The notes under the pieces were generated by a model, which ran no database searches, was not told the origin of the DNA, and saw only the letters and a list, made by a program, of their open reading frames with translations. DNA of 64,000 nucleotides, taken from NCBI GenBank assembly GCA_027531145.1, contig JAPZRF010000006.1:62001-126000 (forward strand), in the 5' to 3' direction. This DNA is from Brevundimonas sp. (GTDB taxonomy: Bacteria > Pseudomonadota > Alphaproteobacteria > Caulobacterales > Caulobacteraceae). Position numbers and translations under genes: made by a program. Every line of letters begins with the position of its first letter. Position 1 is the stretch's first letter. Shown in pieces: positions 44,294 to 56,743 of the stretch.

Positions 44294-44368
44294 GGATGCG
44301 TAGCTCAGCGGGAGAGCACCTCGTTCACACCGAGGGGGTCACAGGTTCAATCCCTGTCGCATCCACCA
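44294..44368 (+). tRNA. tRNA-Val (anticodon CAC)
   Basis: GGATGCGTAGCTCAGCGGGAGAGCACCTCGTTCACACCGAGGGGGTCACAGGTTCAATCCCTGTCGCATCCACCA: acceptor, D, anticodon (loop TTCACAC) and T arms all pair; encoded CCA. Confidence 0.97.
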
Positions 44369-44431: not shown

Positions 44432-45091
44432 TCACCGCGCCGTGGAGGTCACGCGCACGGCCACCTCGTTGCGCCGCAGCGGCGGGACGGTCCAGGGTGG
44501 ATCGTAGAACCAGACGACCGGCTCGCCGTCGGCCGTCCACGTGCTCGCCTGCACCGCCGCAGCGAGCTCCGCCTGCCGGGCGGCTACCGCCTGCGTTCCG
44601 GCGAGGCCGGAGAAGCGCAGCACGGCATAGGACTCGGGCGGGAGTTCCACGAGGGAGACGGCGGGATCCCGAGGAATCGGCAGGGTCTCCATCGTCCAGG
44701 CACCGGGCATGAAGAACTGGATGACCCAGCGACCTGAGCCGGCGGGCCCTTGGGCGACCGGGGCGGTCATGGCGATGCTGCGGGAGCCCGCCGGGCCCCC
44801 GGGCTCGGGGGCCTGGGCGACAGGTGCCGTCATGGCGATGCTGCTGCGGCTCGTGTTGCCCCCGAAGATGTAGCCGGCCAGCCTCTGGAAGCCACGGTTG
44901 CGCGCCGCCTCGCTGGAGCCCGTGACCACAGTCTGGGCCGCGATCCTCGGGCCATAACGGCGGATCTCCACCTCGCCGATCCGCTCGACGACCGTATGGG
45001 CGGGCTCCTCCGTGCCCGAACGTACGCCAACCGTCGAGCACCCGGCGGTGAGAAGCGCCGCCGCGAGGCCGAGCAGGCTCGTCTTCTTCAT
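44432..45091 (-). CDS. SOUL-type heme-binding family lipoprotein
   Basis: MKKTSLLGLAAALLTAGCSTVG lipobox; VVERIGEVEIRRYGPRIAAQTVV; GGNTSRSSIAMTAPVAQ. Confidence 0.92.
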   Translation of the reverse strand: MKKTSLLGLAAALLTAGCSTVGVRSGTEEPAHTVVERIGEVEIRRYGPRIAAQTVVTGSSEAARNRGFQRLAGYIFGGNTSRSSIAMTAPVAQAPEPGGPAGSRSIAMTAPVAQGPAGSGRWVIQFFMPGAWTMETLPIPRDPAVSLVELPPESYAVLRFSGLAGTQAVAARQAELAAAVQASTWTADGEPVVWFYDPPWTVPPLRRNEVAVRVTSTAR

Positions 45092-45382
45092 GGTCGATCC
45101 TTCCGGAGGGCGGGCGCGCTTCCCGCATTCATCAGGGCCTACCATCCCGCGGCGGGAATGGCGCATCCCCGGACGTCGCCCTGGTGTCGCATTGACAAGG
45201 TGTCGCAGTCGGCGGTCCTGCCGCCGCCGGGTCACCGACTCCCCAAACCGCATCCAGTTTCCGGTCTTGAACGCTCATCGCCACACCCCTTCACCATCAC
45301 CGCTTGCAGAGACTTGACGACTACCCCTGATGATCCGCTTCGAGGGGCCTCACCTTATCTTCCGAGCAGTTCGGTGCCCACA

Positions 45383-45643
45383 TCACCGAAGGAGACTTCG
45401 CGGCACACTCTCGTCGAGATGCCACTGGCCGCTCGGCCGAGGTCGGCTGGCGGACAGGTTGCGCGCGACCTGCAACCCGATCTTCAGGACCCATCGGCGG
45501 ATCGTCTCGCACGAAACATCGAGGCCACGTTCTGCCGGGCGTTCCTCGGCGGCGCGACAGCATAGCTTGAGGCGCAGATAGAGCCCGGTGTGGCGGATCT
45601 CCCCGGGCGGGACCCGGTGTCGAGCGTGCGAGATGGGCGTCAC
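45383..45643 (-). pseudogene. IS6-family transposase N-terminal relic
   Basis: RHRVPPGEIRHTGLYLRLKLCCRAAEERPAERGLDVSCETIRRWVLKIGLQVARNLSASRPRPSGQWHLDE, then homology ends. Confidence 0.85.
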
Positions 45644-49188: not shown

Positions 49189-51261
49189 TTAAAGCGCCTC
49201 CCGTTCCAGGACCTTGATGCGCATGGCGTGTTCTCCGGGCTCATCAAGGCTGCAAACCTCTATCCGGAACCGGCACTGCTGGCCATCGGGTGTGGTAACG
49301 GCAAGATCGTCGCTGTCGGCAGCGAGCGCCATGCGATGGCGCTGGTAGTGGACACCTTGGCCCCGCGGGGGCAGCCGCTCATTGATAAGGGCAGCGATCT
49401 CGCGCGCGCCCGTGATCTCGCCAAAGTGCGAGGCGGTAATCCAGACGCCGTCCGGATGGAACAGGCGCGCCGCCGCATCGCCATCGCGTCGGTCCACGGA
49501 ATCGAGAAAGCGCATCAGCAGCGAGCGCTTCGAGCGCCGGGGTGCATAGACGGTGTGCAGAAGCGCGTGGGCGACTTGGGAGTTTGGCGAACCGAGTTCG
49601 GTCTCATAGAGCTTCTGCACGTCCCGGTTTTCATGTGAACGTCGACGAGGAGCGGAGTTGTCGACGCGGTAAACCGCGGCGGCGCGTTTCTCCAGGACCT
49701 TAGGATCGAGGGACTTGGGCTCGCCACCACCGCCGAGACAGCCGCCGACGCACGCCATGACCTCGATTGCGACATAGTCTTCGCGCCACTCGTCGGTCTG
49801 CAGCATGCGCTGGGCAGTCGCGATGCCATTGCATACGGCCACCCGGCCCAGGCCCGGAACATCGGCCGTCTTCACGCCTTCACTGACGCCTCGAAGCGCC
49901 TGCCATACCAGTGGGAGCTCATCGCCGGCACCCGCCAGATGCGCGGCGGTACGCAGCATGGCCTCCATTACGCCACCCGAAGCCCCGAAAATCTGAGCCG
50001 CGCCTGTGCTCTGGCCCAGCGGACTGTCGAACACGCCATCCTCGGGCAGGGCACCGAAGGCGATGCCCCTGGAGCGGATCATCCGGGCCAGTTCCCGAGT
50101 GGTTAGCACATGGTCCACGTCGCCAGACAAACCGGGCCGTACGGCTTCATCCTTCTTGGCAGTGCAGGGCATGACGCTGACGACATAAGGCTCATCCTTG
50201 CCGTTCGCGAAATCCGGCCCAAGCGACCGGGCAAAGGAGCCACGCTTGGTTATTGCGCCCTGCATCTGTTGGGGTGACTTCGTCGTGCTGAGATGGCCCA
50301 GCAGGTCTGGCCGGTTGATCTCCACCCAGTTCACCCAGCCCGGGCAGCAGGAGGTGAACAGTGGCAAATTGGAATTCGCCTTCAGCCGCGCCAGCAGCTC
50401 GGAACCTTCTTCCATGATAGTGAGATCGGCGGCGAAGTTAGTGTCGAAAACATAATCAAACCCAAGCTTACGCAGGGCGTTGATGAGTCGCCCGGTGCTC
50501 ACAACGCCGGGTTCCAGCCCAAACTCCTCGCTGATGGCGATACGCGTAGCGGGCGCGACCTGGACCACAGACACGCGGCGGCGCGAAGCCAGTACGCGCA
50601 GGACGTCATGCCAGTGCGGGGCCTCGATGATGGCCCCAACCGGACAAACGAGAGTGCATTGACCACAGGAAATGCAGGCGGTTTCACTTAGGGGCTGATC
50701 AAAAGCGGTCACAACCAGGCGATCGAAACCGCGCTCGGCAAAGCCGATGACATGTTGCTGCTGGCCAGCCCCGCCGCAGGCCTCCACGCAAAGACCGCAC
50801 TGGATGCACTTCGAGGAGTCCCGCCAGATGCTTGGCGAGGTGTGGTCGACAGAGAGGTGTTCGGGATGTTCCGGCGAACCTGGCGGGACCTCCGGCCAGC
50901 GCTCGGCCCACTGGTTTTCCGCCACGAGGGTCTGCAACCGGCAATCACCATTCACTTCGCAGCGCATGCAATCATTCGGATGTCGCGCGAGCATCCATTC
51001 TGCATTGGTCCGGCGGAACTCTTGCAACGCGTCGGTGTCGGTCTCAACAACATCGCCACTCTTCGCAGGTGTGCAACAAGCGGGCTGAGGTCTGTCCTCA
51101 CTATCGACCTGCACCAGGCACATACGACAGACCGCGTGCGTTGGCAGGCCCGGATAGTGGCAAAGCGTCGGCACATGGCAACCCGCCGCCCGGATAGCCT
51201 CAAGCAGTGTGGCACCTTCGTCGACCTCGACCGGTCGTGCATTCACCATCAGCTTGAGCAT
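49189..51261 (-). CDS. [FeFe]-hydrogenase, M3-type (CpI-like) domain arrangement, with C-terminal SnoaL/NTF2-like extension
   Basis: [2Fe-2S] CHYPGLPTHAVCRMC; HPNDCMRCEVNGDC; CIQCGLCVEAC and CISCGQCTLVCP; H-cluster L1 TSCCPGW, L2 MPCTAKKDE, L3 EVMACVGGCLGGGGEP; small-subunit tail RRRSHENRDVQKLYETELG; last 114 aa not hydrogenase. Confidence 0.96.
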   Translation of the reverse strand: MLKLMVNARPVEVDEGATLLEAIRAAGCHVPTLCHYPGLPTHAVCRMCLVQVDSEDRPQPACCTPAKSGDVVETDTDALQEFRRTNAEWMLARHPNDCMRCEVNGDCRLQTLVAENQWAERWPEVPPGSPEHPEHLSVDHTSPSIWRDSSKCIQCGLCVEACGGAGQQQHVIGFAERGFDRLVVTAFDQPLSETACISCGQCTLVCPVGAIIEAPHWHDVLRVLASRRRVSVVQVAPATRIAISEEFGLEPGVVSTGRLINALRKLGFDYVFDTNFAADLTIMEEGSELLARLKANSNLPLFTSCCPGWVNWVEINRPDLLGHLSTTKSPQQMQGAITKRGSFARSLGPDFANGKDEPYVVSVMPCTAKKDEAVRPGLSGDVDHVLTTRELARMIRSRGIAFGALPEDGVFDSPLGQSTGAAQIFGASGGVMEAMLRTAAHLAGAGDELPLVWQALRGVSEGVKTADVPGLGRVAVCNGIATAQRMLQTDEWREDYVAIEVMACVGGCLGGGGEPKSLDPKVLEKRAAAVYRVDNSAPRRRSHENRDVQKLYETELGSPNSQVAHALLHTVYAPRRSKRSLLMRFLDSVDRRDGDAAARLFHPDGVWITASHFGEITGAREIAALINERLPPRGQGVHYQRHRMALAADSDDLAVTTPDGQQCRFRIEVCSLDEPGEHAMRIKVLEREAL

Positions 51262-54928: not shown

Positions 54929-56743
54929 TCAGCGGCCGCGCAGCCCGAGCGCGGCGGCGACCGCTGACCACGGCAGATACTTGAAGTTCTGGGTCTCGTC
55001 GGGCAGCACGTTACGCCCGTCCTGAACCACGACCGCCCCCGCCTCGAAGCCCGGCCCGAGGTTGGCGCTCGATACGTCGAGGCCATCGGTCTCCGACGCA
55101 CCGTCAATGCCGAGCTCGGCGTTGGCCACGACGGCGAAGGACCCGAGGTAGCGATTGTCGCCGATCCGCTCGAACACGGCATAGCTGTCGTTGCCCTGAC
55201 TGGACACCACCAGATAGCCCTCGCCGCCGCCCAAATCGTAGAGGGCGATGCCTTCGACATCGTCCTTCAGCGCAGGATTCCCGGCGACCATGGCCACGGG
55301 CGTGCGCGCCTCGCCGGCGTCCGGCTCGGCGCCGAAGCGCCAGACGCCCACGTCCTCCTCGCCCACATAGAGCCAGCCATGGACGTCATCAGCGAGGCAC
55401 CCCTCAGGCTGGGTCGCGAGGGCGAAGTCGCGCACGCGCTCGGCGCGCACCCGGTCCCCTGTCTCGATCAGGCGCCACTGGCGCATCCGGCCGTCGGAGT
55501 CGTTGATGAAGGCGTAGGTCGAGCCGTCTCGTGGCGAGCGGTACAGGCAGAGGCCATAGGGGTCGTCGAGCCCCGTCGGCTGCAGCCCGGCCGCGATGTC
55601 GCTCAACTGCCGCGTCGCCGGATCGAGACGGTAGAGACCTAGGCTGCGGTCGGTCCGGTTGCTGGCGGCCACGAGACTGATCTCCTGGCCCGCCAGTCTG
55701 AAGCCGGAACGGAGGTCGACGTTGTTGACGCGCCCCACCGCAAGGTATTGCAGCTGGCGGCCGGTCATGTCGTACACCGCGAGGCCGCCCCGCTTGTCGG
55801 TGCCGACGACGAGGCTGGCGGCCGGATCGGTCGGGTGGACCCAGATGGCCGGATCATCGGCGGCATCGCCGAAGCTGGGCATGGGCGTGGTCTCGACCAT
55901 GGCCGGCAGGGCGGCGAAGGGCGACGGCGGCGCAGCCAGGGCGACAGGATCGCCGGCCTCAACCCCGAGGGCCGCCGCTATTGCGGTCATTGTCAGGCCG
56001 CGCCAGACATCGGCGGCGTCGTCCTGAACCAGAAGTCGCCCGTCGACGACGGCAAGGGAGCCCGTCTCCTCGATGGCAGCCCCCTGCCCGGCAAGGAATA
56101 CCCGACCGACGAAGGCATGGTCGTGGCGACGGTCGTAGACGGTCAGCGCGCCGACCGAGGAGTCCGAGGCGATCAGCCACGGACCGTGCAGGGCCACGCC
56201 CTTGGTCTCGCCGTTCAGCTGACCGAGGCGCGGCGCGTCAATGACTTCAGGGGCAGCATCGGCTTCGGCATCGGCATTGAAGCGCCAGACGCCCACCGCC
56301 TCCTCGGCCACGTAGAGGTCCCCCGTGGCGCTGTCGGCGACGCACTGGGTTGCCGTGGTCGGAACATGCAGCCGGCGCACCGGCGCGACCGTCAGCCCCC
56401 CGCGCCCCCGTCCCACCAGGAACTGGGCGATCTCGCCGCCATCCCCCACCACAAAGGCGTAGGGCAGACCATCACGCGCCCCCGCGATCAGACAAACGCC
56501 CTCGCCGGCGAAACTCAGCGGGCGACGCGCCTCAGCACCGCCTGAGGCCACGACCAGGGCATTGGCGGCTCTGTCGAGCCGGGCGATGACCTCGACCACC
56601 GCACCGGCAACGCGGGCAACAATGCGAGCCGCCGGCGGCTCCTCGACGGCCATTGTCGGCAGCGGTGCCGGCACCGCCTCCTGGGCCTGGAGCGCGCCTG
56701 CTGCGGCCCAGGCCGCCGTCGCCATAAGAATCGCACGCATCAC
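54929..56743 (-). CDS. beta-propeller phytase, two-domain
   Basis: DAADDPAIWVHPTDPAASLVVGTDKRGGLAVYDMTGRQLQYLAVGRVNNVDLR; DDVHGWLYVGEEDVGVWRF; N-terminal half repeats a degenerate propeller (GDLYVAEEAVGVWRF). Confidence 0.94.
   Translation of the reverse strand: MMRAILMATAAWAAAGALQAQEAVPAPLPTMAVEEPPAARIVARVAGAVVEVIARLDRAANALVVASGGAEARRPLSFAGEGVCLIAGARDGLPYAFVVGDGGEIAQFLVGRGRGGLTVAPVRRLHVPTTATQCVADSATGDLYVAEEAVGVWRFNADAEADAAPEVIDAPRLGQLNGETKGVALHGPWLIASDSSVGALTVYDRRHDHAFVGRVFLAGQGAAIEETGSLAVVDGRLLVQDDAADVWRGLTMTAIAAALGVEAGDPVALAAPPSPFAALPAMVETTPMPSFGDAADDPAIWVHPTDPAASLVVGTDKRGGLAVYDMTGRQLQYLAVGRVNNVDLRSGFRLAGQEISLVAASNRTDRSLGLYRLDPATRQLSDIAAGLQPTGLDDPYGLCLYRSPRDGSTYAFINDSDGRMRQWRLIETGDRVRAERVRDFALATQPEGCLADDVHGWLYVGEEDVGVWRFGAEPDAGEARTPVAMVAGNPALKDDVEGIALYDLGGGEGYLVVSSQGNDSYAVFERIGDNRYLGSFAVVANAELGIDGASETDGLDVSSANLGPGFEAGAVVVQDGRNVLPDETQNFKYLPWSAVAAALGLRGR

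Follow-up and report, generated by a model that had tools for sequence, protein, structure and literature searches.

A SnoaL/NTF2-like domain fused to an M3-type [FeFe]-hydrogenase in proteobacterial genomes without detectable HydE, HydF or HydG

What might an [FeFe]-hydrogenase with an added C-terminal domain do in a bacterium whose genome appears to lack the maturases HydE, HydF and HydG? The question is raised by a gene, here termed hydA-snoaL, located at 49189–51261 on the minus strand of a 64,000-nucleotide stretch of Brevundimonas sp. contig JAPZRF010000006.1 (the window). An initial annotation had placed a SnoaL/NTF2-like domain at the C-terminus of a hydrogenase and suggested that it may bind a small molecule and gate or couple that enzyme. 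The fold and the fusion were borne out; the assumption of a working hydrogenase is put in question, as HydG was found in none of 14 fusion genomes and HydE and HydF above cut-off in none of eight.

Architecture and authenticity of the fusion gene

The open reading frame is translated into a 690-aa protein, and all of its features lie on the minus strand. The order of Pfam matches was Fer2_4, NADH-G_4Fe-4S_3, Fer4, Fe_hyd_lg_C, Fe_hyd_SSU, and SnoaL_4 with SnoaL_2. An N-terminal [2Fe-2S] domain with a His-Cys3 [4Fe-4S] region (residues 1–113; 50922–51261; Fer2_4 and NADH-G_4Fe-4S_3) is followed by two [4Fe-4S] ferredoxin-like sites (residues ca. 144–214; 50620–50832; Fer4 family), the H-cluster domain (residues 231–512; 49726–50571; PF02906, Fe_hyd_lg_C, 264.7 bits), and a hydrogenase small-subunit segment (residues 521–575; 49537–49701; PF02256, Fe_hyd_SSU, 69.1 bits). 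Residues 1–575 therefore display the complete order of an M3-type [FeFe]-hydrogenase, and the SnoaL part of about 114 aa (residues 577–690; 49192–49533) follows in the same reading frame with no linker, at exactly the limits first proposed. The nearest solved structures were Thermoanaerobacter kivui HydA1 and other HydA subunits, with the alignment limited to residues 1–577. Among the NCBIfam models, TIGR02512 (group A [FeFe]-hydrogenase) gave 428.6 bits, above its curated cut-off of 405.95, and NF040763 (NADH-dependent group A6/HydABC) gave 644 bits, below its cut-off of 765. The G+C content of the gene (0.629) is lower than that of the window (0.677).

The isolated tail exceeded the gathering thresholds of SnoaL_4 (PF13577; 33.8 bits vs. 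24) and SnoaL_2 (PF12680; 31.5 bits vs. 27); the homologous tails matched SnoaL_2 in 14 of 14 cases and SnoaL_4 in 13 of 14. An AF2 model of the tail, calculated with eight sequences, had a pLDDT of 83.7, a pTM of 0.79, and the helix/strand order of NTF2-like proteins. When this model was compared to the PDB using Foldseek, 225 matches were obtained at E ≤ 1e-3; the best 50 of these were all of the NTF2-like/KSI/LinA/SgcJ type, with a probability of 1.00 and moderate TM-scores (0.4–0.6). A search of PDB sequences with the tail returned weak matches, of the KSI type only. Structure prediction thus agrees with the fold that had been read from the sequence. The full-length AF2 model, also from eight sequences, was poor (pLDDT 52) and was unusable for domain docking. 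The tail shares fold and Pfam family with SnoaL_4/LinA-type proteins and with the NTF2-like ketosteroid isomerases; unlike the stand-alone members, it is a fusion partner, and KSI aligns to it over the first ca. 55 residues only, with gaps around the KSI catalytic Asp40. Its invariant residues across 14 sequences include D590, W607, R641, H642 and R687. D590 and H642 may resemble the Asp/His catalytic pair of LinA-type members.

The initial annotation had also named a frameshift as a conceivable source of the extension. The same domain combination is carried by 15 other genomes; the 16 in total belong to the Alpha-, Beta-, Gamma- and Zetaproteobacteria, and the junction is in register. When the first eight fusion proteins were aligned, they were 67–74% identical to the window protein, and there was no gap at the junction. 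Since the fusion recurs in this manner, a frameshift is not involved. With an identical junction in 16 independent assemblies and no point in favor of an artefact, an origin by frameshift or misassembly was ruled out, and its likelihood is practically nil.

Distribution, surroundings and selection

Six of the additional genomes were located by scanning genome contigs with the tail, and the hydrogenase was in the same open reading frame in each: an Alphaproteobacteria MAG, Mariprofundus, Thioclava JE_KL1, a Hydrogenophaga MAG, a Gammaproteobacteria MAG and a Roseateles MAG. In a sample of the window's order, 8 of 398 genomes had the fusion (the window genome and G075 included); sampling of the order of the Roseateles MAG gave three of 400, two of them new. 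Only 3 of 399 genomes in a phylum-wide sample had it, and none of the listed congeners of the window genome did; the distribution is therefore patchy. The hydrogenase part from Mariprofundus is 72% identical to that of the window, vs. 76% for a member of the window's own family. Such near-equal values are as expected if the gene had spread laterally. Searches of plasmid and phage collections returned ordinary HydA only (best identity ca. 43%), with matches ending near residue 576–581.

The hydrogenase parts of 14 fusion proteins were placed in a maximum-likelihood tree together with a limited outgroup sample of 24 HydA proteins without SnoaL. All 14 fusion proteins formed one clade (support 100/100) on a long stem of 1.59 changes/site. 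Among the residues specific to this clade is E514 (in GGGEP), which is Q in 23 of the 24 SnoaL-less proteins. For related pairs unsaturated at synonymous sites, dN/dS (Nei-Gojobori) was ca. 0.07–0.11 in the hydrogenase part and 0.17–0.30 in the SnoaL part, which evolves faster; synonymous sites are near saturation in more distant pairs. Purifying selection acts on both parts, and the low ratios indicate that the gene is functional and no relic.

An all-against-all comparison of flanking open reading frames at 15 loci revealed no partner genes conserved beyond one genus. In that genus (loci L038, L123 and L124 of genomes G075, G1053 and G1016, respectively), the neighbor order is shared, and hydA-snoaL is surrounded, in antisense orientation, by genes for cytochrome c biogenesis (CcmF, CcmH/CycH-TPR). 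Assignment of a function from operon context was dropped because neighbors are not shared more widely. No NuoE/NuoF-like partner gene adjoins hydA-snoaL in any locus examined, the flanking genes being unrelated in each. The window's genome has one hydrogenase, and its sole Complex1_51K (NuoF-type) match is on another contig. Upstream, FNR, NifA and sigma-54 sites were represented by weak matches only, at no common position.

Several other features were noted near the window gene. About 3.5 kb downstream of its stop codon is an IS6-family transposase-like remnant of 86 aa (45383–45643, minus strand), 60% identical to an annotated one and without a Pfam match. A tRNA-Val gene is at 44294–44368. 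The two may be the trace of an insertion region. Genes for a SOUL heme-binding protein (44432–45253) and a phytase-family protein (54929–56743) are nearby, both on the minus strand.

Cofactor sites and maturases

The H-cluster motifs TSCCPGW (L1), MPCTAKK (L2) and MACVGGCLGGGGEP are present, L3 being MACVGGC, and the motif residues, including the cubane cysteines C306, C366, C504 and C508, are invariant in 14 of 14 fusion proteins. The same is true of all 16 accessory-cluster ligands, i.e. those of the [2Fe-2S] cluster (C34/C45/C48/C62), the His-Cys3 cluster (H94/C98/C101/C107) and the two ferredoxin-like sites (C152/155/158/162 and C196/199/202/206). Positions equivalent to those of Clostridium pasteurianum CpI were counted along a HMMER alignment, and we took their roles from what is established for CpI. 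The equivalents of its cubane ligands (C300, C355, C499, C503), its diiron-pocket residues (C299, M353, K358, M497) and its proton-path residues (C299, E279, S319, E282) are likewise invariant (14/14). Compared to M3-type HydA proteins (T. kivui HydA1, 8a6t; CpI, 4xdc), the window protein has the same N-to-C order and retains all ligands. It differs in its added SnoaL domain, in having GGGEP for GGGQP, in the lack of adjoining hydB/hydC and of HydEFG in the genome, and in its long tree stem. Eukaryotic Nar1 keeps part of these H-cluster motifs without having a diiron unit, so motif conservation alone is no proof of H2 chemistry.

An active [FeFe]-hydrogenase is generally taken to require HydEFG. 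Judged by homology, nothing resembling HydG was found at E ≤ 1e-3 in 14 of 14 fusion genomes searched; in 8 of 8, no HydE (best 27.8 bits vs. a cut-off of 254.6) or HydF (best 91.8 bits vs. 325.55) was above threshold. The sub-threshold HydF matches were confined to the GTPase domain of the profile, which Der/Era-type proteins would match as well. Given these absences, ordinary H-cluster assembly is unavailable to the carriers; a maturation route that is divergent or non-homologous could escape searches of this kind. As positive controls, Thermotoga maritima was above the cut-offs for HydE, HydF and HydG, and HydE and HydG adjoin HydA in the proteobacterium G290.

HydG was present in 10 of 17 genomes with a SnoaL-less HydA, G290 included (in one of the ten, it was split over two contigs); the difference from 0 of 14 fusion genomes gives p = 0.0005 in a Fisher test that ignores kinship. 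The remaining 7 of the 17 also had no HydG, and a maturase-less HydA is therefore not peculiar to the fusion clade. It could be supposed that maturases are present and were overlooked in draft assemblies, on plasmids or as divergent sequences, given these seven genomes and the several carriers that are MAGs of uncertain completeness. We deem this quite improbable: eight carriers are listed as 99–100% complete, the negatives agree over 14 genomes, and the controls were strongly detected.

Five alphaproteobacterial genomes (G460, G586, G435, G484 and G483; loci L069, L073, L074, L076 and L079) have an ordinary HydA of ca. 584–614 aa and no HydG match. They are small (1.1–1.7 Mb; listed as 94–100% complete) and, by the HydG search, constitute a second set with maturase-less HydA.

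A maturase-less alphaproteobacterial HydA was known before. An excerpt of Degli Esposti et al. (2016, PMC4967309) describes one in Rhodospirillum rubrum, deemed inactive or differently employed by earlier authors because the genome has no maturases. The fusion protein is like it in this respect; a SnoaL domain is not mentioned in that excerpt. The fusion itself, of which the initial annotation was aware of no description, may be new, as no report was found in the open-access literature.

Candidate roles of the fusion protein

We propose, at roughly even odds (a probability of about 0.5), that the protein is a repurposed, HydEFG-independent Fe-S redox protein with a hydrogenase fold and a C-terminal NTF2 domain that binds a ligand or is catalytic. 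The subfamily would be a horizontally spread, single-gene M3-type [FeFe]-hydrogenase with a permanent SnoaL domain in hosts without HydE, HydF and HydG. The protein would be produced in its hosts, and its four accessory Fe-S clusters and [4Fe-4S]H cubane would be filled by the general Fe-S machinery. A diiron unit made by HydEFG would not be held; it may be absent, replaced or otherwise made. The ferredoxin-like chain would carry electrons into or out of the cubane/diiron pocket, so that the protein might act as an Fe-S redox enzyme or relay. The NTF2-like domain would furnish a small-molecule pocket, possibly with Asp590/His642 as an acid-base pair, and redox state could be coupled to substrate chemistry within one chain.

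The invariant diiron pocket and proton path count against repurposing, as they are expected of a real hydrogenase. Together with the strong purifying selection on the hydrogenase part and the TIGR02512 score above its cut-off, they argue for a genuine hydrogenase that makes or acquires its diiron unit without HydE/F/G, by a novel maturation route or as a scavenged cofactor, with the SnoaL domain aiding maturation, O2 protection or gating. The uniform absence of the maturases speaks against this, as do the named hosts: Thioclava, Hydrogenophaga, Roseateles and Mariprofundus are aerobic or microaerobic bacteria, in which an O2-sensitive enzyme would be ill placed. We consider such a hydrogenase, matured in an unorthodox way, unlikely and rank it as the main rival; the repurposed redox protein is regarded as the most likely reading.

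A separate question is what the SnoaL domain contributes: it might be a module for dimerization or stability without a catalytic function of its own, with all of the chemistry left to the hydrogenase part. NTF2-like domains commonly dimerize, and the SnoaL part evolves the faster of the two, both of which are consistent with a structural role. A precedent is CbA5H, which also combines a hydrogenase with an accessory domain of the ligand-binding type, and in which the SLBB domain sits at the dimer interface (PMC13397568). That domain is N-terminal, and the enzyme, unlike the fusion protein, is matured by HydEFG and active (PMC13397568). The invariance of the polar and aromatic residues listed above goes beyond obvious packing need, although catalysis is not proven thereby. 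We consider a purely structural role less likely than not.

An analogue in design is HydR, a chimera of [FeFe]-hydrogenase and rubrerythrin from Clostridium perfringens, which a 2025 paper calls unique in that its hydrogenase is linked to a further catalytic domain (PMC11926857). It too has a hydrogenase and a second domain in one chain; however, its partner is rubrerythrin, HydEFG can mature it, and it is an active hydrogenase (PMC11926857). Next to HydR, the present fusion would be the second natural example of a hydrogenase with an attached domain that might carry out chemistry itself.

Automatic annotation of aerobic proteobacteria could mistake this clade for evidence of H2 metabolism. 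A clade that is under selection, has an intact active site and is missing all three maturases offers a direct test of another maturation route vs. a new reaction. The chances are about equal for and against a hydrogenase-fold metalloenzyme that functions without HydEFG, which would mean either that the H-cluster can be built by a second pathway or that there is a new class of enzyme in which the scaffold and its electron chain drive chemistry on a substrate held by the NTF2 domain.
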